In this document: one piece after another, positions 147 to 20,812 of the stretch | Layout: the number at the start of each line of letters is the position of its first letter | Numbering within the stretch: position 1 is the first letter of the stretch | From: a virus | Length of the DNA: 21,112 nt | IMG/VR virus record: IMGVR_UViG_3300035224_000386 | Location: 1 to 21,112 of that record | Reading direction: 5' to 3' (one strand) | Program-made: the position numbers and the translations under genes | The notes under the pieces: generated by a model | Database searches by the model: none | Told to the model about the DNA's origin: nothing | Seen by the model: the letters and a program-made list of their open reading frames with translations, nothing else

Positions 147-2150
147 ATGGAAGATCAAATTTACATAGTAACTCTCTATAATAGAGAAGACTTGCAAAAA
201 TTTTATAATGAGATGCAGCTTACTGGATTTCCTTTAGTGTTGAAGCGTCCTATGAGTAGGAACACACACTATATGATGACAGCAGAACAGGCAGAAAGAT
301 TACGTCAAGATCCTAGAGTGTGGGGTATTGAACGTGCTGATGATTTACATGTTAGATCTCAAAACAATATTAGTATTAATAATGAACCATATTCTGTCGA
401 TGGGAATTTTTCAAAGAGTTCAGCGAATCCTTCTTATTTTCAATGGGGACATTTGCATTGCGCTGGAACACAAGCGCAAAGACGAAAAGGTTCCTGGGGA
501 TCTGGTATTATTAACGATGATGTAAATGTTTTTAACAGTGGAAAACATGTTGATGTTGTTGTTGTTGATGATCCAATGGGATATGATGCGGAAGAGTGGT
601 ATAGTCCTTCGACTGGAGCAACGAGATTTGTTCAGTATCAATGGTTTAATGAACTGAATACTATTGTCAATAGTATTGATGACGACTTCCAATCAGAACC
701 TACTGGAACAATTATCTATCATGAAACTTCTACTAATCCAAAATATCATGGAATGCATGTTGGTGGAACCGTAGCAGGTCAGCACTATGGGTGGGCAAGA
801 GAAGCAAACATTTACAATCTGGCAGTTACTGGAAGTTGGCAGTCTGGACAATCAGTGGGTCCTTATCTCATCTATGATTATCTTAGAGCATTTCATAAGT
901 ATAAACCAGTAAATCCTGAAACTGGAGAGAGGAATCCAACTATTACTAATCATAGTTATGGTGGAATTTACTATACTCCTAATGAAAATCTTCAACTGTC
1001 TGATATTAATAATGTTGTGTGGCAAGGTGTGACATATACATCTGGCAATCCTGGTCCTAGTGGATGGACTACTTCTGGATTGTCAGCAGACTTTGGAATA
1101 CGATTTGGGGTGGATACTATTCCCGCATACTCAGCGGGTATTGCTGCTGATGTTCAGGATGCTATTGATGACGGTGTTGTGATTATTGGTGCTGCTGGAA
1201 ATGATAACATGCTAATAGCAGCACCAGGTGATGATAACTGGAATAATACAGCAAATATTGGTGGTTCAACTCGGTATCTTTGTAGGGGAGCATGGCCTAA
1301 TACTCCTGATACTGATGTAATTAATGTTGGAGCACTTGATAAAAGTAGTAATTTTAAAAGAGCAACATTCACACAGTTTGGTCCCGGTGTAGATGTTTTT
1401 GCTCCTGGTGTTTATATACTTTCCTCTTTTAATAACACGGGATTTAATGATACTAAGTACACTCAAGGTACTGGCAACTATTACTATCCTATTCAAGGAA
1501 CAAGTATGGCATCTCCGCAAGTATGTGGAGTGATGGCATGTCTTGCTACTGGAAAAAGAAGATTTACAAATGCAGATGTGAGAGGTTATCTTGAAAAAAT
1601 GTCAATCAAGGGGGACATGACATTTGATATTAATGGTGGTGGATTGGGTGATAATACTTGTAGACAGGGAAGTCCCAATATGTATCTACATATGGAAAAT
1701 CCAAGACAAGCATCTGGATTTATTAGTGATGACTTAAGAGGAAAACGCACGACTGGAATGACTTTTCCCAGAAAAGCGATGTATTATCAGGCACCATTTA
1801 CTGATGGTTCGCAAACTTATGAGATTGTTGTAGGTAATGCTGGAGCAAGTCATTACACAATGACGGGAAATCATTCAAATGGTTCCTTTGTAAATCAGAA
1901 TGATCCACCAATATATCTGTCTGTTGGAGACACTGTAATATTTAATGTAACCGCTAGCGGACATCCATTTTGGATAAAAAATAGTCCTTCGACCGGAGTT
2001 TCTAATGGTGTGACTGCAGGAACAGTTACTGGTCAAGGAACTGTCAATGGACCAGTTACTTGGGACACTACTGGAGTTCCATCCGGAACATATTATTATA
2101 TTTGTCAGTACCATGGTTCTATGTACGGTCCTATCATTATCTCTGCTTGA
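147..2150 (+). CDS. Subtilisin-like serine protease fused to a C-terminal cupredoxin domain
   Basis: 667 residues. I chose ATG 147 over an upstream in-frame TTG at 126 because GGAG at 136-139 sits seven bases before it and it directly follows the upstream stop. Residues 1 to about 75 resemble a subtilisin propeptide (I9-like). The S8 catalytic set is visible: Asp141 in VVVVDDP, His201 in HGMHVGGT, oxyanion Asn352 in AAGNDN and Ser453 in GTSMASP. Residues about 557-667 form a cupredoxin-like domain with a complete candidate type-1 copper site: His606 (GHPFW), Cys653, His656 and Met659 (ICQYHGSM). There is no signal peptide, so it is probably a cytoplasmic product or a virion component. It sits among tail-fibre genes, suggesting it processes structural proteins or acts on the host surface. 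The protease assignment is strong; copper binding and virion location are inference. Confidence 0.9.
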   Translation: MEDQIYIVTLYNREDLQKFYNEMQLTGFPLVLKRPMSRNTHYMMTAEQAERLRQDPRVWGIERADDLHVRSQNNISINNEPYSVDGNFSKSSANPSYFQWGHLHCAGTQAQRRKGSWGSGIINDDVNVFNSGKHVDVVVVDDPMGYDAEEWYSPSTGATRFVQYQWFNELNTIVNSIDDDFQSEPTGTIIYHETSTNPKYHGMHVGGTVAGQHYGWAREANIYNLAVTGSWQSGQSVGPYLIYDYLRAFHKYKPVNPETGERNPTITNHSYGGIYYTPNENLQLSDINNVVWQGVTYTSGNPGPSGWTTSGLSADFGIRFGVDTIPAYSAGIAADVQDAIDDGVVIIGAAGNDNMLIAAPGDDNWNNTANIGGSTRYLCRGAWPNTPDTDVINVGALDKSSNFKRATFTQFGPGVDVFAPGVYILSSFNNTGFNDTKYTQGTGNYYYPIQGTSMASPQVCGVMACLATGKRRFTNADVRGYLEKMSIKGDMTFDINGGGLGDNTCRQGSPNMYLHMENPRQASGFISDDLRGKRTTGMTFPRKAMYYQAPFTDGSQTYEIVVGNAGASHYTMTGNHSNGSFVNQNDPPIYLSVGDTVIFNVTASGHPFWIKNSPSTGVSNGVTAGTVTGQGTVNGPVTWDTTGVPSGTYYYICQYHGSMYGPIIISA

Positions 2151-2152
2151 GG

Positions 2153-2160
2153 CATAAATA
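2153..2160 (+). promoter_or_regulatory. T4-type late promoter (CATAAATA)
   Basis: CATAAATA lies directly after the protease stop codon and 34 bases before the ATG of the fibre gene. T4-like phages, including cyanomyoviruses, use an extended -10 element of the form NATAAATA read by the phage late sigma factor gp55, with no -35 box. The same octamer recurs before 13481 and, on the other strand, before 16955. Confidence 0.7.
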
Positions 2161-2194
2161 AACACGAGCACTAGTACCCATTTGGTTTAGTTAG

Positions 2195-5100
2195 ATGTCT
2201 GATAGATTTCCTCTTATTGTTAATGCCGTATCAAAGAAAATTGAAGAGCTTGTATCGGGAGACAATCTAGAATTAACTGGAAATGGAATTGTTATTAGTG
2301 GTGATAGTGGTTCTGGTAAATATCTTACGAGTGATGGAAATAATGTTGCTTGGGGAACTCCGGGTGATGTCTTCCTTGATGCGACTCAGAATATATCCAA
2401 TAAGACATTACAACTATGTACTATTTCTGGATCCAATAATTCTATTACGAATATCCCTAACAGCTCCTTAGTTAATTCTGGTTTTGTTGTTAATGGTGCA
2501 ACCGTTTCTCTTGGTGGATCTCTTACTCTTTCTGATACCAATACAACTTATAGTATTTCAATTCAAAATTCTGTAGTTACTACAGAGAAAATTATTAGAC
2601 TGCTTGATAGCGATGATAATAATGATGACATTAAAATTGCAGTTGGTCCTCCTGCGTCTGTACCTAGTGGATACAATGCGTTAGAATTATTTGTAGATAA
2701 CGTTAGCGATACTATTACTATATCTGGGTATGTACCAGATAATAATACCATTACTACTATTGAGTCTGCTACCGGCGGTAGTGCTGTAAGCGGTGCTGTA
2801 ATTTTAACTGCTGGTAATTTCACTACCATTAGTCAAACAGGTAATACGATTACAGTTTCGGGTCAAGATACTGATACGATTACAAGAATTAGAGCAACTA
2901 CAGGTCAAACCGCTCTTTCTGGAAACTTTACATTCTTGGCAAGCGGTGCATCTTCTGTATCACAGGGGGTAGATTCTGGTGGTGATCCTACTATTACAGT
3001 GGGATCTACAAATACAGTGACTAGAATAAAAGGTGGAGCTTCTGGATCTCTTACTAGTGGAGATATCGATTTTACTGGTGGTACTAATGTAACAGTTTCG
3101 CAATCTGGTAATAGTATTACAGTTGAGTCTACCGATACAAATGATGTAACTAAACTTGCTGCAAACTCAGAGACACTGGCATTCGGTGATTTTAGATTAC
3201 TTGCTGCTGGTGCTGCTAATATCACTACGGCAACAAATGGTGGTGTAAAAGAGATTACTATTAGTTCTGTTAATACTGATACTGGTGCTAGTCTAACTGC
3301 ATCGGGTGGTGTTGTTAAAACTTTGGAAGATTTTTCTCTTAAAAATAATACAAATTTTGTTGGTAATACTGTTATTAAATGGGATAGTGGAAATAATCAA
3401 TTATCTAATAGTATTATTCAGGACGATGGCAGTACTGTAACTATTGGTGGTGATCTGTTAATAACAGGAACTCAAACTATACTAGAGACACAAACTTTAA
3501 TTGTTGAAGATAATATTATTGAGATGAGAAGGGGTGCAAATCTTACTTCTACTGATGGTGGTATCCAAGTTAACTTAACTACCAATTCTAATGGCGATGT
3601 TATTTCATATAAACAACTTCAATGGAATAACTCTGGTGGGTATTGGAGATCGTGGGACGGATCAGTTGATAATAGATTTGTAACAGAAACTGAAACTCAA
3701 ATTCTATCAAATAAAACATTACAAAACCCCACACTAAATTCTCCAACTCTTGGAAATGCTACAGCAACTGCTATTAATGGACTTGAAATTGTTAGCACTG
3801 CATCAGCAACTTTAGATATTGCATCTGGAAAAACGCTCGATGTTAATCGAGATCTTGTTTTAACTTCTGATAATAATAGTGGATCTGTAACTGTTAACGT
3901 TAGAAACGGAGGCAATCTTGCAATGACCTCTGATACATTGGCAACGTTTGCATCTACTACATCTACACAAATGCGTGGTGTTGTTTCTGATAGTACAGGA
4001 ACTGGATCACTTATGTTTAGTACTAATCCAAGTATTGTTAGTGGACTTACAACTGGATCATCTGGATTAACATTATTCAATGCTAATGCTACTTCTATTA
4101 CTGCATTTGGTGCAGCAGATCAATTAATAATTGGCAATGCTGGGGGAATTACAAAACTAAATCAAGATCTTCATGTGTACGAAGATCTTGAAATCGGTGT
4201 TAATGACAGCGGAACTATTACAGATGGTAATGTGATTGTTCATGGGCAATTAGATTTAAGAGAGAATGATCTTCTTATTCGTGGCACTGCTACGAACCCT
4301 ATGAGAATAGGAAGAGGAATTGGTGAGGTTAACACTAACACTGCTGTTGGTGTACGATCAATTAATTCTGTTTCTAGTGGATCTCAGAACACTGCTTTTG
4401 GATTTGAGACATTATTAACAGCAAATACTGGTGCATCTAATACTGCTATTGGTAATAGAGCATTAAGAGCATGTGGTATAGGATCTAGGAACGTTGCTCT
4501 CGGTAAAGATTCTCTTCTTACAAATCTTTCTGGTGATAATAATGTTTCTATCGGTGCTGATAGCATGGTTGGAAATAGTACTGGTTCTAATAATGTTTGT
4601 ATTGGATACTATGCTGGATATGCACTGACTGGTAATGGTAATGTTATTATTGGTCCTTCCGATGATGAAAATTCTACAAATGCTACTTATATTCCACCTG
4701 TTCCTGGTGGCAATAGACAGTTAGTTATTGGATCTGGAACTGAAGCATGGATTCGAGGAGATGATACATTTAAAGTTACTGTTCCAAATGATCTAAATGT
4801 ATCTGGGGATCTAGAACTTGGTGGATCACTTACAGTTAATGGTACTGTTACTACTATTAATTCAAACGTTGTGTCTGTTGATGATAAAGAGATTGAACTT
4901 GCTTCTGTTGGAGCAGCAACATTTACTGCAATCACGCAAAATAATAGTGATACAATTACTGCTGTCACTCCATCTGCAGGACTAATTCCTGGTATGGAAG
5001 TCACATCTTCTACTGGTGGAATTAGTGTTCCTCCTAATACTATTATTTCATCTATCTCTGGAAACACTGCCATTCTTTCTGCATCTGTTACTGGTGAAGG

Positions 5101-5764
5101 AACTGCAACGTTTACATCTCCTGGTGCTACAGATTTGACAGCAAATGGTGGAGGTATCCGTATCTTGGGAACCTCTGATAAGAGAATTTACTATGATCAC
5201 TCAAGAACTGATAAGTATTGGGTGATGACCGAGAACCTTGAGATTCCTTTCGGTAAAAAGTTTGTTATTGGAAATCAACTAGCACTCAGTGCAAGTTCAC
5301 TTGGTTCTACAATTGTTAACTCTTCTCTGACATCGGTTGGAACACTTACTAGTTTGGAGGTTGATGGATCTCTTACTATCGGTGGTGTGGTCACTGAGAA
5401 AGTATTTAATAATTACAGTACTGTACTTACTCCATCTGCTAGCGTTCTTACAGTTAATGTTGCTGGTGCTAACACAATTTGTGGAACACCTGCAGCAGCG
5501 CAGATTGATGAGTGGGCATTCACTGGAGTTGGATTAACCAACGGTCAATCTAAGACTATTACATTAATCCTTTCAGCAAATACTGCTGCTATATATGGTG
5601 ATGATTGTAGTGTTGATGGCACAGCAATTACTAATGGTGTCCAGTGGTCTGGAGGTTCTCCTCCAATTGCAACATCAAACACTGATATACTTACTTTTAT
5701 TATAGTAACCGATAACTCTGGTGTAACTAAAGTATTCGGACAAGGCAATACGGACTTTAGCTGA
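2195..5764 (+). CDS. Large tail-fibre-like structural protein with YadA-head-like repeats
   Basis: 1189 residues, rich in Gly, Ser, Thr, Asn and Val and almost without Cys, as in trimeric beta fibres. Residues about 183-362 hold three to four degenerate repeats of about 45 residues with motifs such as TRIKGGASG and NSITVESTDT. NISNKTL and ILSNKTLQNPTL near residues 70 and 505 are typical of phage tail fibres. Residues about 714-821 contain a 22-24-residue period (NTAFGFETL, NTAIGNRAL, NVALGKDSL, NVSIGADSM) like the YadA adhesin head. A small beta module is inserted at about 907-978. The final 110 residues look like a separate tip domain. No clear ribosome binding site precedes ATG 2195; a late promoter does. 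It is probably a distal or accessory fibre in host recognition. No T4 homologue can be named from sequence alone. Confidence 0.75.
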   Translation: MSDRFPLIVNAVSKKIEELVSGDNLELTGNGIVISGDSGSGKYLTSDGNNVAWGTPGDVFLDATQNISNKTLQLCTISGSNNSITNIPNSSLVNSGFVVNGATVSLGGSLTLSDTNTTYSISIQNSVVTTEKIIRLLDSDDNNDDIKIAVGPPASVPSGYNALELFVDNVSDTITISGYVPDNNTITTIESATGGSAVSGAVILTAGNFTTISQTGNTITVSGQDTDTITRIRATTGQTALSGNFTFLASGASSVSQGVDSGGDPTITVGSTNTVTRIKGGASGSLTSGDIDFTGGTNVTVSQSGNSITVESTDTNDVTKLAANSETLAFGDFRLLAAGAANITTATNGGVKEITISSVNTDTGASLTASGGVVKTLEDFSLKNNTNFVGNTVIKWDSGNNQLSNSIIQDDGSTVTIGGDLLITGTQTILETQTLIVEDNIIEMRRGANLTSTDGGIQVNLTTNSNGDVISYKQLQWNNSGGYWRSWDGSVDNRFVTETETQILSNKTLQNPTLNSPTLGNATATAINGLEIVSTASATLDIASGKTLDVNRDLVLTSDNNSGSVTVNVRNGGNLAMTSDTLATFASTTSTQMRGVVSDSTGTGSLMFSTNPSIVSGLTTGSSGLTLFNANATSITAFGAADQLIIGNAGGITKLNQDLHVYEDLEIGVNDSGTITDGNVIVHGQLDLRENDLLIRGTATNPMRIGRGIGEVNTNTAVGVRSINSVSSGSQNTAFGFETLLTANTGASNTAIGNRALRACGIGSRNVALGKDSLLTNLSGDNNVSIGADSMVGNSTGSNNVCIGYYAGYALTGNGNVIIGPSDDENSTNATYIPPVPGGNRQLVIGSGTEAWIRGDDTFKVTVPNDLNVSGDLELGGSLTVNGTVTTINSNVVSVDDKEIELASVGAATFTAITQNNSDTITAVTPSAGLIPGMEVTSSTGGISVPPNTIISSISGNTAILSASVTGEGTATFTSPGATDLTANGGGIRILGTSDKRIYYDHSRTDKYWVMTENLEIPFGKKFVIGNQLALSASSLGSTIVNSSLTSVGTLTSLEVDGSLTIGGVVTEKVFNNYSTVLTPSASVLTVNVAGANTICGTPAAAQIDEWAFTGVGLTNGQSKTITLILSANTAAIYGDDCSVDGTAITNGVQWSGGSPPIATSNTDILTFIIVTDNSGVTKVFGQGNTDFS

Positions 5765-5774
5765 GGATAGATAA

Positions 5775-8700
5775 ATGCCAGTAGGTTTTAATAGTCCTGC
5801 CAGAAACCTTTTCCTTTTAGGTTCCTCCGGGCAGCAAGTTGTAACAAATTTCTTTGAGGCAATTGATAAGTCGGCAAGCACTGATGGTGTCTATATTCCT
5901 GACGAGATTAGATATGTTGCCTCTAATCAAAAGTATGCTCTCGCTGGAACTGCAGCAGACAGCAACTCGAAAAATTTTGGGTGGTTTGAGAGACAAGATT
6001 ATGACTTAGAAACAGGATCTCTCACTACAGATTATTCTAATAAGATTGAATCAACCCAATCGGGTGTTAATACAACTCTACGTGCTATGGAGTTGGATTC
6101 TAATGACAATCTAATTGTTGTTGGTAAAACAGGAACAGTTCCTTGGATTGCAAAGTATACTAATGGCGGTGCAATTGCGTGGTCATCAACAACCAACTCT
6201 GCTGATGTAGAATATTTTGATGTTGCATCGGATAGTTATGGAAAATATTATGCTTGTGGTAGAACACCTTTAACTGCTACTGATACGCAAGCATTTATAG
6301 AGAGTTTTGATCAAAATGGAAACCCTGGTTGGGGTAAGCAAGCTTTCATGTTGGGTAGAGAGGTTACTACTATTGCTATTGATGCCAATAACCAAGGACA
6401 TGTTGTTGCTGTTGGATATCTAGAAGACGATACTAGAGACAAAGGATATATTATTAAGATTGACACTGCCACTGGTAATATTATGTGGGACAGAACATTA
6501 AGTTCTGGCGTAGACTTAAAATGCACAGATGTTTTTATTGACAGTAAAGATCAGATTTATGTTATTGCAAATGATGATACTAATGGATATCTTGTAAAGT
6601 ATACTGCTGCAGGTAATATGATATGGCAGAAGAAAACTAATCAATCTGTTGGTACGTTATCCCATCTTCAAGTACAATCTGATGGTGAGACTGAACAAAC
6701 CATTGTCTTTGGAAATTATGAATACAATGGAGATCAGTCTGGAGTACTGAGTAAGTATGCAAAGGATGGCAGACTAGTCTTCCGAAGAACTATGGTTAGT
6801 TCTAACAATAATTCTGATACATTTGATAATATTTGTTTAGATGCTGACGCATCATTTTACTACTTCATGTATACTGATCAAACTGAAAGTGGATTTGCTG
6901 GAACACCAGATGCATATACTTTTGGTAAAGTAAGTAGTTCTGGCAATGGTCTTGGTGCATTCCAATATGAAGATGGAACAGGAACAACTATTGACTACGA
7001 GATTCTTAATGCGGGAGATACTATTGGTAGACTATCAGATGGTTCTGTGAGGAATGACACAAGTGATCTAATTACTTATCCATTTACTGCTAACAAACTA
7101 GTCTTTGATGACCTTGCTACTCATGTCTCTAACAAGAGGAGACAGATGGATGGTCCTGATAGCTTTGAGTACAGTGGTAGTCCTGCTATTAGACCTGCTG
7201 ACTTCCCAGAAATGAATCTTGGAACAGAAGCTAGTAGTATTCAAACTGAAGTAACTACTTCTGGTGATTATGTAGGTCAGGCAGAATTCACAACTACTGG
7301 ATCTTTCAGTTGGACTGTTCCTACTGGTGTAACTTCAGTAAGTGTTGTTTGCGTTGGTGGAGGTTCTAATGCTGGAACTGGTGACAACCGTAGAGGTGGT
7401 GGTGGTGGAGCTTTAGCTTATGTGAATAATATAAGCGTTACTCCTGGTGAAGCATTGACAGTAGAGGCTGGTACTTGGGGTGGATACACAGCCGGGTCCG
7501 GCTATGTTGCGGCAGGACATTCAGATCTTAAGAGAGGTGCTACAATTTTATGTAGGGCAAACGGTGGAGAATCTGGATCCACTGGTTCATCTGGTTCATC
7601 TGGTAGAGGTGGTCTTGGAGGAACTGTTGACACAGGAACTGGTGGTTCTGGTGGTACTGGTGGCGGTTACCAGAATCAAAGCCACGGTGGTGGTGGTGGT
7701 GCTGGTGGTTACTCTGGCGATGGTGGTGATGGTGCCATGGGGTCATTGAGCACATCATCTACTACTTACTCTGGAGGTACTGGATCTGGTGGCGGCGGTG
7801 GAGGTGGTGGCAGCAAAAATCTCTCCGCCAGTAGTGGTGCTGGCGGTGGTGGTGTAGGACTTTATGGTGAGGGTGCTTCAGGTGCTGGTGGTGGTAGCGG
7901 ACTCAATCAACCTGGATTTGGCGGTTCGGGTGGCAGTGATGGAGGAACTGACGCTAATGGTAATGTATCTTCTGGTGGTTTATATGGAGGTGGTGCTGCT
8001 GTTGGAGGAAGTGTTGAAGCAGGTAGAGGTGCTGTTCGTATTATTTGGGGCCCTGGAAGATCATTTCCATCTACATTGACAGCAGATCAAACTCCTAGTG
8101 ATGGCGAAGATATTAATACTACAATTACTACATACACAGCTTTAGATCAATCAGGTAAAGGTAATGATGGCACAGTAAATGGTGCTACTCTCAATGCTGA
8201 TGGATACTGGGAGTTTGATGGAACGAATGACACTATTGATCTAGGGACAACGCCGTTGATTGCTAGTAATTCTGACTTCACGGTTGAAGGATGGTGTTGG
8301 GTAGATGCCTTGACAAATGAATGTAGTATATTTGAAGTGACATCTGACACTACAAGTGCTGCTATTCTATTATCTGCTGGTAGCACTACTGATGGCACTG
8401 TAGGTGGTCGTTTCGTTGTTAGAAAAGATAGTGGACAAGATCTTGGCATGAGAAATCCTCCTGGTCTGGGACATTCCACTGGAGAATGGCACCACTATGT
8501 TGGAACACATATTAATAGTTCAAACAAGTTGTTTCAAACTAAACTATATGTTGATGGAGTTAATGTGCAGTCTGCTGACACCTTTGCTGGTAATCATGAC
8601 TTCACTTTCTCTGGTGTTAACACTCAGAAACTTGGTGTGTCATCTGGAACCAGATTTTTGGATGGTAGAATTGGAGAGTTTCGTATCTATCCAAGAGCAC

Positions 8701-10076
8701 TAACACCAACACAAGTATTCCAAAACTACAACGCTACCAAGTCTAAGTATATCAACGAAGCACCTAATACAGCATCTAGGATTACTTCTGATGATATTGT
8801 AATTGATAGCAACCTGCTTCTGAACTATGACTTTGGAAACAGAGCAACCTATGATCGTGCTGAGAATTTAATTCCCGAATCAATTGTCTATGCTGATGTC
8901 ATAGCTGAGGGTCTTTTTTGGTCAAGAATAGGTGTGTTCACTAGAAAAAGAGTTGCTGATCCTTTCGGATCTAACAATGCATTTCAGTATCTTTCAGGTG
9001 GTGGTCCAAATATAAAGACCAGACTTATAAGTGCTCCTGATTCCAACCCATTACAACCAACGAGTCTAACAGGAGAACCATATGTTTTTAGCATCTTTGT
9101 TAAGGCAATAAATTATGATATTGTTCATTGGGGTTCTAGCGGACTTCCATGGACAACAGCTGGCACAGGAAATACCAGAATCAAATTTAATTTATCTACA
9201 GGCACAGTGGTAACGGACTTAACAACCATGGGGAGCGTATCATCAGCAAGTATGATACCTTATGGTGGTGGATGGTGGAGATTAGTAGTGGCAACTACTC
9301 CAGCAACGGACGATAGCGGAATAAGATTATATCTAGATCTTGGTGAAATACTTGGAGATGTACACACAAGGAAAGAAGGTTTTCAAGTATATGGTGCTCA
9401 AATGGAAGTGGGCACTACCGTTGGTAGACACGTCCAAACATATGGAACTGCTATCACACCACCAACCACAGTAAAGAACCTCTCAAGTAGTTCTTACCCT
9501 GGCACACTTGTTAGTGGTCTTACATTCAATAGTGATGGACACTTTGATTTTGATGGAGTAGATGGTAGACTGGAAACCACCCTTCCTGCATCAACGATTG
9601 GTCAAACTTTTACAGCAGAAGCATGGATCTATCCAACAGATTTTTCGGCACCTACAGGCGGTCCAACTGACGCATACCCTAGAAGAATTATGAGTTGTCA
9701 TCGATCAGTTGAATCTACTAAATGGTGTTTTGGTATTGACACTTCTGGAAGACTTGGATTTGGTGGTGCTCAAGGAATTGAAGAATCTAATGACAAAAAA
9801 TATCAATTGAGTTTGAATACTTACTATCATGTTGTGCTTGTTCATAATGGAACATCATATAAAATCTATGTAAATGGCACAGAACAAGTTGATCAAACCA
9901 CTTCACCAATAGATCCTAATAATCAATCTAATTTGGCGATAGGTGGAAGACCAGACGGATACGCAGATAGAGTTTTTGAAGGTAGAATTGCACAAGCTCG
10001 TATCTATAATGATGTATTAACATCAACTGAAATCTCTAAGAACTATAATGCTACCCGTACTAAGTACGGTGTCTGA
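5775..10076 (+). CDS. Multi-domain adhesin: beta-propeller, glycine-rich domain, two LamG-like modules
   Basis: 1433 residues. ATG 5775 has GAGGA at 5763-5767 overlapping the upstream stop, so translation is probably coupled. Residues about 40-420 carry blade-like repeats of the form DSNDNLIVVG...KY...G.I.W (for example GYIIKIDTATGNIMWDRT and GYLVKYTAAGNMIWQKKT), as in PQQ-like or SBBP propellers. Residues 505-765 start with SFSWTVPTGVTSVSVVCVGG and become a very glycine-rich run ending GAVRIIWGPG, a known phage and bacterial glycine-rich domain. Residues about 785-992 and 1220-1433 are LamG (concanavalin A-like) modules, each ending in a similar motif (QNYNATKSKY and KNYNATRTKY). Between them, at about 1010-1215, lies a carbohydrate-binding-like beta module containing GGGWWRLVV. 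The architecture suggests a glycan-binding receptor-recognition protein on the tail; that role is inference. Confidence 0.75.
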   Translation: MPVGFNSPARNLFLLGSSGQQVVTNFFEAIDKSASTDGVYIPDEIRYVASNQKYALAGTAADSNSKNFGWFERQDYDLETGSLTTDYSNKIESTQSGVNTTLRAMELDSNDNLIVVGKTGTVPWIAKYTNGGAIAWSSTTNSADVEYFDVASDSYGKYYACGRTPLTATDTQAFIESFDQNGNPGWGKQAFMLGREVTTIAIDANNQGHVVAVGYLEDDTRDKGYIIKIDTATGNIMWDRTLSSGVDLKCTDVFIDSKDQIYVIANDDTNGYLVKYTAAGNMIWQKKTNQSVGTLSHLQVQSDGETEQTIVFGNYEYNGDQSGVLSKYAKDGRLVFRRTMVSSNNNSDTFDNICLDADASFYYFMYTDQTESGFAGTPDAYTFGKVSSSGNGLGAFQYEDGTGTTIDYEILNAGDTIGRLSDGSVRNDTSDLITYPFTANKLVFDDLATHVSNKRRQMDGPDSFEYSGSPAIRPADFPEMNLGTEASSIQTEVTTSGDYVGQAEFTTTGSFSWTVPTGVTSVSVVCVGGGSNAGTGDNRRGGGGGALAYVNNISVTPGEALTVEAGTWGGYTAGSGYVAAGHSDLKRGATILCRANGGESGSTGSSGSSGRGGLGGTVDTGTGGSGGTGGGYQNQSHGGGGGAGGYSGDGGDGAMGSLSTSSTTYSGGTGSGGGGGGGGSKNLSASSGAGGGGVGLYGEGASGAGGGSGLNQPGFGGSGGSDGGTDANGNVSSGGLYGGGAAVGGSVEAGRGAVRIIWGPGRSFPSTLTADQTPSDGEDINTTITTYTALDQSGKGNDGTVNGATLNADGYWEFDGTNDTIDLGTTPLIASNSDFTVEGWCWVDALTNECSIFEVTSDTTSAAILLSAGSTTDGTVGGRFVVRKDSGQDLGMRNPPGLGHSTGEWHHYVGTHINSSNKLFQTKLYVDGVNVQSADTFAGNHDFTFSGVNTQKLGVSSGTRFLDGRIGEFRIYPRALTPTQVFQNYNATKSKYINEAPNTASRITSDDIVIDSNLLLNYDFGNRATYDRAENLIPESIVYADVIAEGLFWSRIGVFTRKRVADPFGSNNAFQYLSGGGPNIKTRLISAPDSNPLQPTSLTGEPYVFSIFVKAINYDIVHWGSSGLPWTTAGTGNTRIKFNLSTGTVVTDLTTMGSVSSASMIPYGGGWWRLVVATTPATDDSGIRLYLDLGEILGDVHTRKEGFQVYGAQMEVGTTVGRHVQTYGTAITPPTTVKNLSSSSYPGTLVSGLTFNSDGHFDFDGVDGRLETTLPASTIGQTFTAEAWIYPTDFSAPTGGPTDAYPRRIMSCHRSVESTKWCFGIDTSGRLGFGGAQGIEESNDKKYQLSLNTYYHVVLVHNGTSYKIYVNGTEQVDQTTSPIDPNNQSNLAIGGRPDGYADRVFEGRIAQARIYNDVLTSTEISKNYNATRTKYGV

Positions 10077-10082
10077 TAAATA
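10075..10082 (+). promoter_or_regulatory. T4-type late promoter (GATAAATA)
   Basis: GATAAATA overlaps the TGA stop of the adhesin gene and lies 35 bases before ATG 10118. It matches the NATAAATA late consensus, and the spacing resembles that of the copy before 2195. Confidence 0.6.
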
Positions 10083-10117
10083 GATAGAGCATAATAATAT
10101 TCCGAGGAACATAGGTA

Positions 10118-13100
10118 ATGGCAAGGAAATCCATTAAGAGTAACTACTACCTGTTTGATGCTTCAGCGCGTGAAGTTATCATCCCCGGTGGTATTCAAAG
10201 AGAGCAGTTAATTCTCATTACTAATGTTAATGCTAACAAAGTAATCTATAATTTCTCTGACCCGGAACTTACTGCTAGTACTTATACTATTCAAACTGAT
10301 ATTCGTAATGTCACCACGACTAGAGTAGTATTAGAATATGATACATCAAGTATGTCTGATTCAGACAAACTTCAAATTGTTTATGATGACTTTGAAGAGA
10401 CCATTCAACCATCGGAAACATATCATGATGCTGTAAACAAATCTAAAGTATCACAACCACAATCTCAGATTGATACTGACTTCGAGTATGGTACTCAGGA
10501 TACCAAGTGGGAAGCGTTGTCGATGATTAACAACAACCCATTCGCATACAAGTCTCAAGATCCTATTGTTATTACTGACGTTCAGGCAACACAAGGTTCA
10601 CGAGAAATTTTAGTATCTGTAAATACTAATGTTTCTACTAGACCTGCTGCTGGAACAGCTGTTTATATTCAAGATACAACATTCCCTGCTGCAAACGGTG
10701 TGTTTATTGTAGACAGTACTTCCGGTTCTACCGATTTTACATACACAGCAAAGTCTGAGTGGACTATTGGATCTGGTGGTATCTGGCAGAGTGCTAGAAC
10801 AGCATTATATACAGGAGTTCATTACACAGGATCTAGTATTGGTGGAAGTCTTACTATTTCCAATGGAACTGGAGTAATGCTTGGGTCACTTAAAATTGAC
10901 TGTTCTCAGGCACATGGTTTAGAAGTTGGTAATGAAATTGCTATTGCTGGATCTTCTGGTACTAATGTTAATGGATCTTGGACTGTTGCTAGAGTAGATA
11001 GTCCAACTAGTTTTTATTATTTTCCATCTCAATCACCATCAGGTGGTATCAATAGTGGTACTAAAAAATTATATCCAAGACCACAGGGTTCTTCTGTCCA
11101 CAGATCATTTGACGGTGGTGTAAAATTTTCTACAAATACTTTTTCTAAAAATAATCAGGCAATTAGACAGACCAAGAGATACTTCCGATATCAGTCTGGT
11201 AAAGGTGTGTCATTCTCCACTGGTTCTATTCTAGAACCTGCTATTGAAAATGTCGATAGTATTACTTCGTCTGGTACTACTATTACTGTAGTAACAGCAG
11301 ATGCACACAACTGTACTAGAGACGTGAGCATTGATGTTCGGGGTGTAGACGATAATTCTTATAATGGTGTATTTACTGTCACTAATGTAATTGATCCTTA
11401 TACTTTTCAGTATATAACATCCACTACTCCATCGAATACTACTGCTGGTGGTGAGTATACTATTACTCCTGTTAGTGGGTATGGAACAAACCTAGAAATT
11501 GGCATGCAAGACCAACAAAATGGTATCTTCTTTAGATATTCTAGTGGTATTCTTAGTTTAGTACGTAGATGTTCTACATATCAATTATCTGGGAGAGCAT
11601 CGGTTGCTTATGGAAGCACACTTGTTTCTAGTTTTACCGCTGCAAATGGACAGAGTACGAAGTTTAGTAAGCAATTAACTCCTGGTGATTACATTGTTAT
11701 TCGTGGTTCTTCTTATCGTGTTGATGGTATTATTTCTGATACTCAACTTGTTATTTTCCCAGACTATCGTGGTCCTAATGATGATGGACAACTCGCTTCT
11801 AACAATTTAATTATTACTAAGACTGTTGAAACTGAGTGGAGGCAATCAGACTGGAACTTGGATCGTTGTGATGGATCTGGTAAGTCTGGTTATACTATTG
11901 ATACAACCAAGATGCAGATGCTCTACATGGACTACTCTTGGTATGGTGCTGGTTTCATCCGCTGGGGATTCCGTGCTCTCGATGGTAATGTAATTTATGT
12001 ACATAAAATTCCCAATAACAACCAAAACACTGAAGCATATATGAGATCTGGTAATTTACCAGCTCGTTATGAAGTTAATACTATTCCACCATCAACCACA
12101 ACTACAAAAACAGTTTCCAATTCGGACACTACACTATTTGTTGCTGATGCTACAACAAGTTTCCCTGATGCTGGAGTTCTTCGTCTTAAGAGAACAACTA
12201 GTGGTACGGGTGGTGTTCAGGAATATCTAACATACTCCGGAAAAGAGGAATTTGTTCAAGATATTATTAATGTTTCAACTGGAAATTTAATTGAAGTACC
12301 ATCTACTACTGGATTGAGTCCTGGAGGACAGCAAACGATTAGATTTGATACTCCATTCTCTAATATTGTTGCGAACAAAACATATTATGTTGCTTCTATT
12401 TTTAGTGCAACAACATTTCAGATTACTGAGGTTCAGGGATCTTCGACAGGTAAAGCTTTAGATAATCAAATTGGTTCTGCTTTATCACCATTATCACGCG
12501 CATATTCCGGAAAATTTACTGGTTGTACTAGAGAACAATCAGGTGCTACCGGTGTAAATTTAACCATGTCAATAGGACAATCAAGTGGTTCTGTAAATTC
12601 TGCTACTGGTATTCAAGTAGGACAAAGAATTATTGGAAGTGGCGTTCCAGCAGATACTTATGTTCATTCTATTGTCGGTACAACTATTGAATTGAGTAAG
12701 GCAGTAATAAGTTCAAACCCAACTGGTCTTATTTTCTGTCCTCTTGGTTCAGCATCTGCACAAACATTTAACTATGATGAGACTCAACCAGTAAGTGTAG
12801 AACTATTGCAAGCGACAGTTGTTCCACAGATCTCACACTGGGGTTCATCTGTTATTATGGATGGTACTTTCAATGAAGATAGAGCATATGTTTATACGAT
12901 TGGTACTAGATTAAGAAGATCTATCGGTACAGGAGGTAATAAGCAACGTTCTGTTCTTGCGGTAAGATTAGCACCATCAGTTGATAATGGAATCATTGGT
13001 TCTTTTGGCAAAAGAGAACTTGTTAATAGAATGCAGTTGATTTTACGTAGTATGGACGTGCTATCAGAGGGTCAGTTTTTTGTTGAACTGGTATTGAATC

Positions 13101-13456
13101 CAATTCCAACTGCTACTGTTCCTTGGTTGCCTGTTGGTGGTACATCATTAGCAGAGTATACAAATATGAATGGTCAATCTAATATTGACTTTATCGGTGG
13201 GGAAGTTATTTACGGATTCTATGCTGGTGGATCAGATGGTAATGCTATTCCAGAAAGTTATAGTCTATCTGATGTTAAAGAAATCTCAAACTCTATCTTG
13301 GGTGGTGGTACTGACAACTATGAATTTACATCTGCGCCAAACCCATCTGGAATTTTCCCTGATGGACCTGAAATTGTAGGAATTAGGGTTACTAACATTG
13401 GTAGTAGTGCTGCTAAAATTGACGCACGTATCTCTTGGACAGAGGCACAAGCATAA
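10118..13456 (+). CDS. Large virion structural protein with repeated beta modules
   Basis: 1112 residues, ATG 10118 with GAGG ten bases upstream. The N-terminal 140 residues (MARKSIKSNYYLFDASAREV...) read as a compact attachment domain with a DTKWEAL motif. The middle has at least two and possibly three beta repeats with the pattern hydrophobic-G-x-x-V-x-I-x-G...NG.W.V..V....F.Y, at about 190-220, 265-305 and 395-440. A conserved-looking core at about 600-650 contains SWYGAGFIRWGFR and AYMRSGNLPARYE, which I associate with structural proteins of marine T4-like phages. A small module at about 808-876 resembles one in the fibre encoded at 2195. There are no catalytic motifs and no membrane segments. 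It is probably a tail or baseplate-associated structural protein; the exact location in the particle is not evident. Confidence 0.75.
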   Translation: MARKSIKSNYYLFDASAREVIIPGGIQREQLILITNVNANKVIYNFSDPELTASTYTIQTDIRNVTTTRVVLEYDTSSMSDSDKLQIVYDDFEETIQPSETYHDAVNKSKVSQPQSQIDTDFEYGTQDTKWEALSMINNNPFAYKSQDPIVITDVQATQGSREILVSVNTNVSTRPAAGTAVYIQDTTFPAANGVFIVDSTSGSTDFTYTAKSEWTIGSGGIWQSARTALYTGVHYTGSSIGGSLTISNGTGVMLGSLKIDCSQAHGLEVGNEIAIAGSSGTNVNGSWTVARVDSPTSFYYFPSQSPSGGINSGTKKLYPRPQGSSVHRSFDGGVKFSTNTFSKNNQAIRQTKRYFRYQSGKGVSFSTGSILEPAIENVDSITSSGTTITVVTADAHNCTRDVSIDVRGVDDNSYNGVFTVTNVIDPYTFQYITSTTPSNTTAGGEYTITPVSGYGTNLEIGMQDQQNGIFFRYSSGILSLVRRCSTYQLSGRASVAYGSTLVSSFTAANGQSTKFSKQLTPGDYIVIRGSSYRVDGIISDTQLVIFPDYRGPNDDGQLASNNLIITKTVETEWRQSDWNLDRCDGSGKSGYTIDTTKMQMLYMDYSWYGAGFIRWGFRALDGNVIYVHKIPNNNQNTEAYMRSGNLPARYEVNTIPPSTTTTKTVSNSDTTLFVADATTSFPDAGVLRLKRTTSGTGGVQEYLTYSGKEEFVQDIINVSTGNLIEVPSTTGLSPGGQQTIRFDTPFSNIVANKTYYVASIFSATTFQITEVQGSSTGKALDNQIGSALSPLSRAYSGKFTGCTREQSGATGVNLTMSIGQSSGSVNSATGIQVGQRIIGSGVPADTYVHSIVGTTIELSKAVISSNPTGLIFCPLGSASAQTFNYDETQPVSVELLQATVVPQISHWGSSVIMDGTFNEDRAYVYTIGTRLRRSIGTGGNKQRSVLAVRLAPSVDNGIIGSFGKRELVNRMQLILRSMDVLSEGQFFVELVLNPIPTATVPWLPVGGTSLAEYTNMNGQSNIDFIGGEVIYGFYAGGSDGNAIPESYSLSDVKEISNSILGGGTDNYEFTSAPNPSGIFPDGPEIVGIRVTNIGSSAAKIDARISWTEAQA

Positions 13457-17057: not shown

Positions 17058-17267
17058 ATGACCGTAACAACAGAAGATGGTGGACGCACAAACATGTGGG
17101 CTACAGAACCCCGCATGTATGTAGATCCCACAGAAGCAGAGCGTTATGGGTATGAGACTCATGCTGACCGTGCTGAAAAAGCAAATGGTCGCTGGGCAAT
17201 GCTCGGCATTATTGCTGGTTTCCTGTCATATGCCATCACAGGCAACTTCTTTTTTGGAGTAGCTTGA
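17058..17267 (+). CDS. hli: High-light-inducible protein (Hli)
   Basis: 69 residues. The C-terminal half is the single-helix chlorophyll-binding motif of the Hli/LHC superfamily: AEKANGRWAMLGIIAGF with Glu40, Asn43, Arg45 and Met48, then TGNFFFG. In cyanobacteria these thylakoid proteins bind chlorophyll and carotenoid and protect photosystem assembly and repair under light stress; cyanophages commonly carry them. The N-terminal 30 residues are polar. It is the first gene after a strong early promoter and lies two bases before the next start codon, so the photoprotection set is probably made from the beginning of infection. Confidence 0.93.
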   Translation: MTVTTEDGGRTNMWATEPRMYVDPTEAERYGYETHADRAEKANGRWAMLGIIAGFLSYAITGNFFFGVA

Positions 17268-17269
17268 CA

Positions 17270-17356
17270 ATGGCGGCATCATTCTTTACAATGGTAGGTG
17301 TCGTGTTCTTAGTAGCACTGGCATATTCTATAGAACAACTTTCTGAAACATACTAA
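17270..17356 (+). CDS. 28-residue single-span membrane peptide
   Basis: ATG 17270 to TAA 17354-17356 encodes [20 protein letters not shown] followed by [13 protein letters not shown] lies about ten bases upstream, and the stop shares one base with the ferredoxin ATG (TAATG). The peptide is one hydrophobic helix with a short polar tail, the shape of small photosystem or cytochrome b6f subunits, but it does not match PsbI, PsbJ, PsbM, PsbN, PsbT, PetG, PetL or PetN well enough for me to name it. Its place between hli and petF suggests a thylakoid role. Confidence 0.55.
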
Positions 17357-17649
17357 TGGCTTTTAATATCACTGCTAAGGCACCTGATGGAACTGAATCT
17401 GTTTTCACATGTGAGGACGATCAGTATATCCTTGACGCTGCTGAAGAAGCAGGTGTAGATATCAATTACTCTTGTCGTGCTGGTGCTTGTTCATCTTGTG
17501 CTGGTAAACTTGAGAGTGGATCTGTTGATCAAAGCGATCAATCGTTTTTGGATGACGATCAAATGGAGTCGGGATTTATTCTGACCTGTGTGTCTTATCC
17601 TACTAGTGATTGTGTAGTCTTGACCGAGCAAGAAGAGAGTTTGTATTGA
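17356..17649 (+). CDS. petF: Plant-type [2Fe-2S] ferredoxin
   Basis: 97 residues, the normal length for cyanobacterial PetF. The cluster ligands are all present: Cys40, Cys45, Cys48 and Cys78 in [13 protein letters not shown] and ILTCVSYP. The acidic surface and C-terminal EQEESLY also fit. Ferredoxin takes electrons from photosystem I and feeds NADP reduction, cyclic flow and ferredoxin-dependent bilin reductases; in phage infection it could supply any of these. The start overlaps the upstream stop, and the stop overlaps the next ATG, so translation is coupled on both sides. Confidence 0.95.
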
Positions 17650-17987
17650 TGAATCTTACACAGGATGAACTTTGGAATACGATTGCAACCCTTGGTTGGA
17701 ATGTCAGAGATGACAATATCGTAATTGAGATCGGTGGTACAGTAGTTTCTGGTATCCACCAAGGTGAGGAGTACAATAAAAAGTGGGCAACCCCTTACGG
17801 TACTCGCAAATATAATAAGGATGCGTTCATCGTCCTTAAAAATCTATCTAGAAATGATGACACTAAGTCTCAACCCATGGATAGACCACACGAACCTCAT
17901 CATTCAAAGACACCAGACATTGTTGTCAACATGGACGGCGGTGTAGGTGGTTCTTGGGAAGTTAAGGAGGAAGATGACAAATCCTAA
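17649..17987 (+). CDS. Conserved-type hypothetical protein, 112 residues
   Basis: ATG 17649 overlaps the ferredoxin TGA (ATGA) and is preferred to an upstream in-frame start at 17610. The N-terminal 70 residues look folded ([20 protein letters not shown], then EIGGTVVSGI and KWATPYGTRKYNKDAFIVLK). The C-terminal part is polar and probably disordered (MDRPHEPHHSKTPD, ending VKEEDDKS). No membrane segment, signal or metal motif is visible. It does not resemble a family I can name. Its operon position links it to ferredoxin and Hli, nothing more. Confidence 0.7.
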   Translation: MNLTQDELWNTIATLGWNVRDDNIVIEIGGTVVSGIHQGEEYNKKWATPYGTRKYNKDAFIVLKNLSRNDDTKSQPMDRPHEPHHSKTPDIVVNMDGGVGGSWEVKEEDDKS

Positions 17988-18123
17988 CGCTCTCTATGAA
18001 GACATGGAGAAACTGAATGCCCTATACGAAGAACTCTGCTGGGGGCATGATGATGAACTAACGTTCACTCACGAAAATGGCAGAGTTATTATCTACAACA
18101 AATCACAGGAGCAAATCAAATGA
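17974..18123 (+). CDS. Small hypothetical protein, 49 residues
   Basis: ATG 17974 follows a very good ribosome binding site, AAGGAGG at 17964-17970, inside the end of the previous gene. The protein is acidic and predicted helical at first (NALYEDMEKLNALYEELCWG), then a short strand-like end (ELTFTHENGRVIIYNKS). No known domain. The stop TGA overlaps the next ATG. The strong Shine-Dalgarno and coupling support real expression. Confidence 0.65.
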   Translation: MTNPNALYEDMEKLNALYEELCWGHDDELTFTHENGRVIIYNKSQEQIK

Positions 18124-18239
18124 AATTCGGATTCACACCTGAGGCAGAGATCCTCAACTCACGTCTAGCAATGCTTGGTTTCATCATCGCTGTTGGAACT
18201 TATGCAACCACAGGACAAATTATTCCAGGAGTATGGTAA
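18120..18239 (+). CDS. hli: Short high-light-inducible protein (Hli)
   Basis: 39 residues, nearly only the chlorophyll-binding helix: AEILNSRLAMLGFIIAVGTY then TTGQIIPGVW, with Glu10, Asn13, Arg15, Met18 and the typical TGQxxPG end. Ser14 replaces the usual Gly of NGR. It is the shorter type of Hli found in cyanophages and picocyanobacteria, expected in thylakoids next to photosystem chlorophyll proteins. ATGA overlap with the gene before and direct abutment with the gene after place it in the same operon as the first hli. Confidence 0.88.
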   Translation: MKFGFTPEAEILNSRLAMLGFIIAVGTYATTGQIIPGVW

Positions 18240-18380
18240 ATGGACACCAGTAACTTTCTAGCATTAGTAGTTGGATTCATGGTAGCAAATTTTTTATTAT
18301 ATCTTATCAAAGAATCTGATGATGATAATGGTGGAGGTGATGGCGGTATCATGACTCCTGTCATGGCACCTACAAATTAA
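18240..18380 (+). CDS. Small membrane protein, 46 residues
   Basis: ATG 18240 directly follows the hli stop. One hydrophobic segment at about 5-23 (NFLALVVGFMVANFLLYLI) is followed by an acidic and glycine-rich tail (KESDDDNGGGDGG) and a Met/Pro end (IMTPVMAPTN). It is the last gene before the operon terminator. Function unknown; it could be a thylakoid or plasma-membrane peptide. Confidence 0.65.
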   Translation: MDTSNFLALVVGFMVANFLLYLIKESDDDNGGGDGGIMTPVMAPTN

Positions 18381-18387
18381 ATAAATA
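18380..18387 (+). promoter_or_regulatory. Possible late promoter motif (AATAAATA)
   Basis: AATAAATA overlaps the stop of the 46-residue gene. It fits NATAAATA, but the site is AT-rich, so a chance match is possible. A transcript from it would run almost at once into the terminator at 18408-18446. Confidence 0.35.
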
Positions 18388-18407
18388 AAGACATATCGTC
18401 GCCCCTT

Positions 18408-18446
18408 AAAGGGACCTCTGCCACATAACAGAAGGTCCCTTTTTTA
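18408..18446 (+). terminator. Rho-independent terminator of the hli-petF operon
   Basis: AAAGGGACCT pairs with AGGTCCCTTT, extended by CTG with CAG across a one-base bulge, around a loop of about eight bases. The right arm runs into six Ts. It ends the early operon 13 bases before the dioxygenase start codon. Confidence 0.85.
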
Positions 18447-18458
18447 TTATCTAAATGT

Positions 18459-19016
18459 ATGGAAACTTTTATTGATGTTTATGATAATGTGCTGTCTACT
18501 GCACAGTGTAACACTATTATAGATTGGTTTGAAAAATCAACAGAAAAACAATTCCCTGGAGAGTGTGGTAATAATAAATTAATAGATACTAGAGTTAAAA
18601 ATTCGACAGATATTTCCCTGCAATTCAATTCCGAATGTGAAATATCTCAAATTATTTTTCCTCAGTTGAAGCATAATATAATTAAATATATTGAGACTTA
18701 CAATATTGCAAGTTTAGTTAGTGGTATTGAAAACGATATCTATTACACTCTACAGAAGTATAAACCTAACCAAGGATATTTTGGAGAACATTGTGAACAT
18801 GATACTGCATCTTCAAGTCGTGTGCTGGGGTGGACTTTATATTTAAATGATATCGCTGATGGTGGTGCAACATACTTTACAAAGTATGATTTGAAAATAC
18901 TAGCAAAAACTGGTAGACTTGCTATCTTCCCCGCGTATTGGACACATGCCCATAAAGGTTTGGTATCACTTACAGAAACAAAATACATATCAACAGGATG
19001 GTTCACATTAACATGA
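18459..19016 (+). CDS. 2-oxoglutarate/Fe(II)-dependent dioxygenase (prolyl-hydroxylase-like)
   Basis: 185 residues, ATG 18459. The C-terminal half has the family pattern: YKPNQGYFGEHCE, then RVLGWTLYLND with GGATYF, then FPAYWTHAHKG and TKYISTGW. Likely iron ligands are His111 and Glu113 (HxE rather than the usual HxD) and distal His165, with Lys175 ten residues later as the 2-oxoglutarate contact, the same spacing as in prolyl 4-hydroxylases. Such enzymes hydroxylate protein side chains or other substrates and are frequent in T4-like cyanophages; the target is unknown. The gene begins just after a terminator, and its own promoter is unclear. Its TGA overlaps the next ATG. Confidence 0.85.
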   Translation: METFIDVYDNVLSTAQCNTIIDWFEKSTEKQFPGECGNNKLIDTRVKNSTDISLQFNSECEISQIIFPQLKHNIIKYIETYNIASLVSGIENDIYYTLQKYKPNQGYFGEHCEHDTASSSRVLGWTLYLNDIADGGATYFTKYDLKILAKTGRLAIFPAYWTHAHKGLVSLTETKYISTGWFTLT

Positions 19017-19186
19017 AAACAAATCAAATGTTTCACATCTATGAGAAAGAAACTAATGAACCTGTCAAGGTTTGTATGACAGTTGAGGAACTGGAACAAA
19101 TGATCGCAAAAAGAGAGGTAGATTGGAAGCACTGGGAGGTAGAAACGTGCTATACTGATCTCAGTTCGGAAGACCCCTCTTACTAG
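19013..19186 (+). CDS. Small acidic hypothetical protein, 57 residues
   Basis: ATG 19013 overlaps the dioxygenase stop (ATGA); an earlier in-frame start at 18998 is less likely. The protein reads MKTNQMFHIYEKETNEPVKV, then a helix-like TVEELEQMIAKREVDWKHWE, and ends ETCYTDLSSEDPSY. It is soluble with no known motif. Translational coupling suggests that it works with the dioxygenase or is only cotranscribed with it. I believe relatives exist in other cyanomyoviruses, but cannot confirm. Confidence 0.7.
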   Translation: MKTNQMFHIYEKETNEPVKVCMTVEELEQMIAKREVDWKHWEVETCYTDLSSEDPSY

Positions 19187-19214
19187 TTGAGTATAATCAC
19201 TCATCTTTCAGGGG

Positions 19215-19248
19215 TTGACGGACATAGCACAACCTGCTATAATAAATA
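19215..19248 (+). promoter_or_regulatory. psbA promoter: sigma-70 box overlapping a late motif
   Basis: TTGACG at 19215-19220 and TATAAT at 19238-19243 are 17 bases apart, a strong host-type promoter. The -10 runs directly into AATAAATA at 19241-19248, which fits the phage late consensus. psbA may therefore be transcribed both early and late. Confidence 0.75.
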
Positions 19249-19249
19249 G

Positions 19250-19412
19250 GTCAGCAAGTTAAGGAACCAACACATTTCTTAACGCTTCTTAACACCCCAC
19301 AAACCAAGACCTCTAGGGTGTATAAAAACGTCTTTCATATCCCTGACTTAGGGTGTCTGGGAAATAGTAAAACCATCATCTCCCTGATGATCTTACTTTT
19401 TTGTTCAAAACA
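19250..19412 (+). promoter_or_regulatory. Long structured psbA leader
   Basis: About 160 bases separate the promoter from the psbA start codon. ACACCC at 19292-19297 can pair with GGGTGT at either 19316-19321 or 19351-19356, so two folds compete. A six-base hairpin (ATCATC with GATGAT, 19375-19391) is followed by six Ts at 19397-19402. No Shine-Dalgarno precedes the ATG. The leader could control psbA translation or early termination. Confidence 0.45.
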
Positions 19413-20492
19413 ATGGCAACAACTCTTTCAAGGCAACAACAAACCTCCGCGTGGGATTCGTTCTGCGAGTGGGTAACTTCTACCAATAACCGCCTCTATG
19501 TCGGTTGGTTCGGCGTACTGATGATTCCAACTCTGTTGGCAGCAACCATCTGTTTCATCGTCGCTTTCGTCGCTGCTCCCCCTGTGGACATCGACGGCAT
19601 CCGTGAACCCGTAGCTGGTTCACTCATGTATGGCAACAACATCATCTCTGGTGCAGTTGTTCCATCTTCCAACGCAATTGGTCTTCACTTCTATCCCATC
19701 TGGGAAGCCGCATCACTTGATGAGTGGCTGTATAACGGTGGTCCTTTCCAACTCGTAATCTTTCACTTCCTGATCGGCATCTTTGCCTACATGGGACGTG
19801 AATGGGAACTTTCATACCGCTTGGGTATGCGTCCATGGATCTGTGTAGCATACTCTGCTCCAGTAGCAGCAGCATCGGCAGTCTTCCTGGTCTATCCTTT
19901 CGGTCAAGGTTCATTCTCTGACGCAATGCCACTTGGCATCTCTGGTACATTCAACTACATGCTTGTCTTCCAAGCAGAGCACAACATTCTGATGCATCCC
20001 TTCCACATGTTGGGTGTCGCAGGTGTCTTTGGTGGTTCACTGTTCAGTGCAATGCACGGTTCTTTGGTTACATCTTCACTCGTCCGTGAGACGACTGAAA
20101 CTGAATCCCAGAACTATGGTTATAAGTTCGGACAAGAAGAAGAAACATACAACATCGTTGCAGCACATGGCTACTTCGGTCGTTTGATCTTCCAATATGC
20201 TTCATTCAACAATTCACGTTCACTGCACTTCTTCCTCGCAGCATGGCCTGTAGTTGGAATCTGGTTCACCGCACTGGGCGTAAGCACCATGGCATTTAAC
20301 CTCAATGGATTCAACTTCAACCAGTCCATCCTCGACGGACAAGGACGTGTCCTCAACACATGGGCAGACGTGCTCAACCGTGCCGGTCTCGGCATGGAAG
20401 TCATGCACGAGCGCAACGCGCACAACTTCCCGCTGGATCTTGCAGCAGCTGAGTCCACACCTGTGGCCTTGATTGCTCCTTCTGTTGGTTGA
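19413..20492 (+). CDS. psbA: Photosystem II D1 protein
   Basis: 359 residues from ATG 19413; the in-frame TTG at 19401 is not needed. All D1 landmarks are in register: Tyr161 and His190, Asp170 (Mn cluster), His198 (P680), His215 and His272 (non-heme iron), Ser264 (QB pocket), His332, Glu333, His337 and Asp342, and the processing site after Ala344. Position 130 is Glu, as in the high-light D1 form. The frame is uninterrupted, so there is no group I intron as in some cyanophage psbA genes. D1 sits in thylakoids and is the most photodamaged subunit; the phage copy is thought to sustain photosynthesis during infection. Its base composition is visibly C-richer than the structural genes, consistent with host origin. 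Confidence 0.99.
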
Positions 20493-20518
20493 TTCCAAAA
20501 TCCAATAGTTGATTCTAT

Positions 20519-20550
20519 AATACCCCGAAAAAAATTCGGGGTATTTTTTT
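20519..20550 (+). terminator. Rho-independent terminator after psbA
   Basis: AATACCCCGAA pairs perfectly with TTCGGGGTATT (11 base pairs) around a five-A loop and runs into a tract of seven Ts. It lies 27 bases after the psbA stop. Confidence 0.92.
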
Positions 20551-20570
20551 CCCTAATAATGTAAAGTTTT

Positions 20571-20801: not shown

Positions 20802-20812
20802 GGTAAATAAAA

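Follow-up and report, generated by a model that had tools for sequence, protein, structure and literature searches.

A type-1-copper-type cupredoxin domain joined to a predicted cyanophage subtilase recurs as a mobile module among predicted virion proteins of marine phages

Rusticyanin, amicyanin and plastocyanin are described cupredoxins with which the phage domain considered here shares its fold, the His…Cys-His-Met order of the copper ligands and the GH(P/S)F and GxYxYxC surroundings of those ligands; the C-X2-H-X2-M loop of the phage domain has the spacing of amicyanin. It differs from all three in that identity is about 20–25%, no Pro flanks the second His, and the domain is part of a large protein with no apparent secretion signal, for which copper is predicted. 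The best profile match in the PDB is the cupredoxin at the C-terminus of a multicopper oxidase from Nitrosopumilus (9cck). It is likewise appended to the end of an enzyme and also carries a C-X2-H-X2-M loop, but the enzyme in that case is an oxidase, which has further copper sites, and in the phage it is a protease.

Copper proteins and metal-bearing tails have both been described in phages. Cyanophages encode the cupredoxin plastocyanin, petE (PMC3037559); this is a stand-alone photosynthesis gene, whereas the cupredoxin reported here is a domain of a putative virion protein. For phage tail fibres, it has been proposed that iron held by HxH motifs acts as a ‘Ferrojan horse’ (PMC11705849). Such fibres, of which T4 gp37 is one, resemble the phage cupredoxin in placing a metal site in a tail protein (PMC11705849), but they differ in fold and in ligands, and hold octahedral Fe in a trimeric fibre. 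The phrog_9158 S8/S53 peptidase proteins of cyanophages such as ACG-2014e, S-CAM4 and S-H9-1 have the same two domains as the protein studied here, with 59–63% identity and the same gene order; they are annotated only as hypothetical or subtilisin-like protease, and the copper domain is unnamed in annotation. Cupredoxins, subtilases and cyanophage plastocyanin are known already, while a recurrent type-1 site in marine phage tail proteins appears to be undescribed; in the open-access literature we found no account of phage virion proteins with a type-1 copper domain. The metal sites so far known from phage tails hold iron; here the site is a constrained one of the type-1 copper kind, often fused or adjacent to a subtilase.

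The window, by which we mean the whole stretch of viral DNA analysed (21,112 nucleotides of IMG/VR record IMGVR_UViG_3300035224_000386), contains an uninterrupted ORF of 667 aa at 147–2150 (+ strand, stop codon counted), which encodes an S8 subtilase with a C-terminal cupredoxin. Its ATG at 147 lies 1 nt past the stop codon of the upstream gene (TGA, 143–145), a spacing that is equal or nearly equal in annotated homologues or related phages. The profile of phrog_9158, a family entered in the PHROG library without assigned function, covers the whole protein, matching residues 3–666 with an E-value of 1.7e-297. An earlier note on this DNA had called the fusion unexpected; it is no isolated case, since the protein belongs to a known phage family and its domain recurs as a mobile virion module.

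The same note had described the S8 protease as complete, and this reading stands. Pfam Peptidase_S8 (PF00082) matches residues 173–484 (E 1.6e-22), and the Asp-His-Ser triad, with the oxyanion Asn, is found in S8 order as D141, H201, N352 and S453. The catalytic domain spans about residues 121–500 (507–1646, + strand), as judged from the PF00082 match and from the subtilisin folds matched in a structure search with the full-length AF2 model, a model of modest confidence (mean pLDDT 63). Asp141 (567–569) and His201 (747–749) are each invariant in the 12 of 12 orthologues that cover them, and Ser453, within GTSMASP (1503–1505), in 14 of 14; all three lie on the + strand. Pro-subtilisin structures 3whi and 3afg were also matched by the full-length model, and residues 1 to about 75 (147–371, + strand) probably form a prodomain-like N-terminal region, to judge by their strand-helix-strand pattern in the AF2 model. 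No I9 prodomain was matched by Pfam in the 667-aa protein; I9-type prodomains are common in subtilases but not obligatory. No signal peptide or other secretion signal is apparent at the N-terminus. We conclude that the S8 part of this ORF is a predicted protease, its proteolytic activity being read from sequence.

The cupredoxin domain occupies about residues 556–667 (1812–2147, + strand). Searched on its own against Pfam and NCBIfam, the domain of the window protein had no match of use, but among 39 close relatives of the domain, 33 matched Copper-bind (PF00127; best E 1.7e-6) and 36 the NCBIfam amicyanin model. When the profile of the domain family was compared with the PDB, it matched 9cck (the multicopper oxidase cupredoxin), rusticyanin and plastocyanin at E-values of 4e-7 to 4e-6. 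An AlphaFold2 model of the domain, built with 39 sequences, reached a pLDDT of 96.8 and a pTM of 0.89; in a Foldseek search of the PDB, rusticyanins were its best matches (E 1.3e-6), and nearly all matches at E ≤ 1e-3 were cupredoxins or multicopper oxidases. The nitrosocyanin-like fold that had been suggested as a comparison was absent from the matches, the nearest relatives being rusticyanin, amicyanin, plastocyanin and the C-terminal cupredoxin of multicopper oxidases.

Aligned with rusticyanin, the domain places His606 (in GHPFWIK; 1962–1964), Cys653 (2103–2105), His656 (2112–2114) and Met659 (the end of the C-X2-H-X2-M loop; 2121–2123), all on the + strand, where the four rusticyanin ligands lie. 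From this ligand-by-ligand agreement, taken with the fold match to rusticyanin, the four residues are predicted to converge. The fold model, the family profile and the rusticyanin alignment thus agree on the cupredoxin and the four ligands that the earlier note had proposed, and we conclude that the C-terminal domain is a cupredoxin of the type-1 copper type with all four ligands; that it is occupied by copper is a prediction from sequence and model.

In order to count ligands, phage copies of the cupredoxin were grouped at 80% identity, which gave 77 clusters. The His-Cys-His-Met set is intact in 71 of these. Position by position, His606 is kept in 96% of the 77 clusters, Cys653 and His656 each in 98.6% of the 74 with a residue there, and Met659 in 98.6% of the 73 with a residue there. 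Among the six exceptional clusters, three have a Cys-His-Met loop that is uncovered in the alignment (two of them also being without the first His), one reads HCHQ, one reads HCH and is unaligned at the last position, and the most informative, from locus L024, reads Asn-Ser-Asp-Met. The ligand columns are among the most conserved of the family, while most other positions drift. In the protease orthologues, D141, H201, N352 and S453 and the four copper ligands are invariant wherever the sequence covers them, so that the conservation expected of genuine ligands is found. Pairwise dN/dS values for the cupredoxin of 0.45 (window versus L022) and 0.19 (L006 versus L007) indicate that the domain is under purifying selection. 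The strictness of the ligand set argues that metal binding is selected and that the metal itself probably matters, and copper is the metal suggested by the cupredoxin fold together with the Met ligand.

Two cupredoxin copies at L024 are unusual. The upstream gene of that locus (1230–3563) carries a degenerate copy in which Asn, Ser and Asp replace His, Cys and His; three of the four ligands have gone together, as expected if the metal site acts as one unit. The protease-borne cupredoxin of the same locus (6726–7952), unlike the degenerate copy, keeps its ligands. It is split into a His half (ORF residues 587–654) and a Cys-His-Met half (946–995), with about 290 residues inserted in the loop between them.

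The domain is often found with S8 proteases. The comparison took ORFs of 300 aa or more, made non-redundant, from loci retrieved by the cupredoxin alone, and the cupredoxin was excised before the S8 profile was run. S8 was matched by 39 of 73 domain-bearing ORFs as against 7 of 148 neighbouring ORFs, and by 30 of 73 as against 5 of 148 when the serine motif was also required, an association inflated because loci were ranked by how closely they resembled the window's own domain, which is borne on a protease. In many of the non-fused cases an S8 gene adjoins the domain gene, overlapping it or lying at most 9 nt away. Where the two are fused, the arrangement varies: the cupredoxin is C-terminal in the window protein, N-terminal to the protease at L101 and L021, on both sides of it at L017, and ahead of the last conserved segment of the protein at L053; it lies inside the catalytic domain at L012, where it separates the His of the triad from the oxyanion Asn, and at L042, where it separates that Asn from the catalytic Ser. 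On a tree of 83 cupredoxin copies, built from few columns and with many forks lacking resolution, the S8 label needs 17 changes, at least seven of which are forced by well supported branches. Fusion or loss has therefore been repeated, and the fusion is polyphyletic.

Full-length homologues are found in Synechococcus T4-like phages, among them S-CAM4, ACG-2014e, i and j, and S-H9-1, so that a search for the same fusion in other cyanophages, proposed in the earlier note, has a positive answer. In the S-RSM4 and S-WAM2 orthologues the protease stops before the cupredoxin domain, which indicates that the protease does not always require it. The same cupredoxin is carried by tail fibre-like proteins of P-SSM2, by a gp9/10-type baseplate connector of P-TIM68 and by a protein of podovirus P-SCSP2, and tandem copies occur among the phage proteins. 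Fold matches in the viral structure library (BFVD) were to cyanophage peptidases, tail fibres and baseplate connectors. We conclude that the cupredoxin is a mobile module found widely in predicted virion proteins of marine phages, among them proteases, a baseplate connector and tail fibres.

In the freshwater Actinomycetia phage DSL-LC01 (L011, 4122–5507) a YHYH domain (PF14240) is joined to the cupredoxin, and two further viral fold matches were YHYH proteins as well; the pairing may hint at a common metal role. A bacterial or archaeal origin, for which loci L052 and L053 were candidates, was rejected, both resembling phage contigs binned with bacteria or archaea. L053 was assigned to a Euryarchaeota MAG, but its subtilase with cupredoxin (913–3450) is of the cyanophage type, and the contig probably comes from a phage and was mis-binned. 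A search for a plasmid origin gave no match.

The nearest cellular relatives of the phage cupredoxin are Bacteroidota proteins; matches at E ≤ 1e-8 were present in 10 of 296 sampled Bacteroidota genomes. The relatives include a protein of 1279 aa that carries a T9SS sorting domain, an open frame of 8567 residues, and proteins with CHRD repeats whose N-termini resemble lipoprotein signals. They probably lie at the cell surface, in keeping with an extracellular role of the domain. In two of the Bacteroidota loci (L137, 259–1812; L138, 214–1809) CHRD repeats with HPAHIH-like motifs are followed by the same cupredoxin at the end of the protein, and one of the two proteins also has a sub-threshold Cu/Zn SOD match.

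Downstream of the protease gene, three genes at 2195–13456 (+ strand) match PHROG profiles of virion structural proteins (phrog_6002, phrog_8510 and phrog_5838). The neighbours of the protease gene are the same in isolated cyanophages and their order is conserved; in the S-RSM4 record the next genes are similar to structural proteins of S-PM2, one of which was identified by mass spectrometry. The PHROG families and the conserved neighbourhood together bear out the setting among virion structural genes that had been proposed, and from this structural gene operon we infer that the 667-aa protein is probably a virion, or tail, protein. In a 1433-aa virion protein encoded at 5775–10076 of the window, two lectin-like stretches match Laminin_G_3; a Gly-rich domain is also present, and beta-propeller profiles match weakly. 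Genes adjoining the protease thus also bear modules of the host-contact type.

Anchoring, copper sensing and participation in redox had been offered as possible roles for the domain. The first of these, taken as contact with the host, needs the fewest assumptions; on copper sensing the evidence points neither way. We infer copper, virion location and host contact alike, and propose with moderate confidence that the domain, loaded with copper, makes contact with the host and positions the tail-associated subtilase of a marine, T4-like cyanophage. On this proposal, each cupredoxin domain would most likely bind one copper ion, acquired during virion assembly or after release; the copper-loaded domain, at the distal tail, would serve as the host-contact module and hold the protease against proteins of the host cell surface, and the subtilase would trim these proteins, opening a path to the membrane. 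The partners of the domain, namely proteases, fibres and lectin-like domains, indicate the host-contact end of the virion and favour a contact module. Some weight must nevertheless be left to a redox or copper-specific role, because a simple adhesin need not retain the type-1 ligand set.

The near-absolute constraint on the complete His-Cys-His-Met set could be explained if the copper site were a redox module, shuttling electrons or reacting with superoxide at the cell surface, so as to protect the virion or modify groups on the host surface; the protease would then be an independent neighbour. Electron-transfer proteins such as rusticyanin and amicyanin indeed give the best fold matches, and some of the Bacteroidota relatives pair the domain with CHRD repeats, one of them with the sub-threshold Cu/Zn SOD match. 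However, nothing specific favours the electron transfer suggested in the earlier note: no redox partner domain was found in the domain-bearing ORFs scanned with Pfam, an electron source in the virion is not obvious, and the partners that are found are proteases, fibres and lectin-like domains. We consider a redox role unlikely. The same constraint weighs against a plain beta-sandwich spacer or adhesive domain, shuffled like the Ig-like or PPC domains of cellular subtilases, in which copper would be incidental; high mobility, tandem copies, varied positions and loss in two orthologues are all what a spacer would display, but frequent ligand loss would also be expected of it, and few residues of the family are better conserved than the ligands. 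This reading is distinctly unlikely.

Since tail fibres are known to hold metal ions, and by analogy with the hypothesis for iron (PMC11705849), the copper-loaded domain might mimic a copper carrier of the host and dock on a hypothetical metal-uptake receptor of the host, as a copper Trojan horse. Its location in tail and fibre proteins would suit such a role; nevertheless, the proteins that bear the domain vary in their location and probably in the host of their phage, that of the Actinomycetia phage included, and we regard docking of this kind as unlikely. Alternatively, the subtilase might cut virion proteins, or itself, during assembly, with copper met outside the cytoplasm acting as a location switch. 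The prodomain-like N-terminus without apparent secretion signal, the coupled structural operon and the frequent presence of a protease as the next gene are compatible with maturation, but the domain is also found where there is no protease, and its position relative to a protease varies, which does not suit a dedicated switch, and we judge this highly improbable.

Beyond the host-contact reading of the window protein, the recurrence of the domain with intact ligands suggests that virus particles may carry copper. It is conceivable, and we put it forward tentatively, that marine phage particles are cuproproteins, in which a mobile type-1 module, joined time and again to tail proteases and fibres, loads copper and uses it at the host surface for recognition or chemistry. 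If so, phages would constitute a copper-binding pool and copper would be a factor in infection. Were copper present, the trace-metal chemistry of the ocean would be linked to phage adsorption, and a set of ‘hypothetical’ cyanophage structural genes would acquire a named function.

The far end of the window (17058–21112) holds a photosynthesis-type cluster typical of cyanophages. It comprises a possible hli gene (17058–17267), with a chlorophyll-binding match below the Pfam cut-off, a 2Fe-2S ferredoxin (17356–17649), a 2OG-Fe(II) oxygenase (18459–19016), psbA (19401–20492) and a second reaction-centre gene, psbD by our reading, which runs off the end of the window at 21112.
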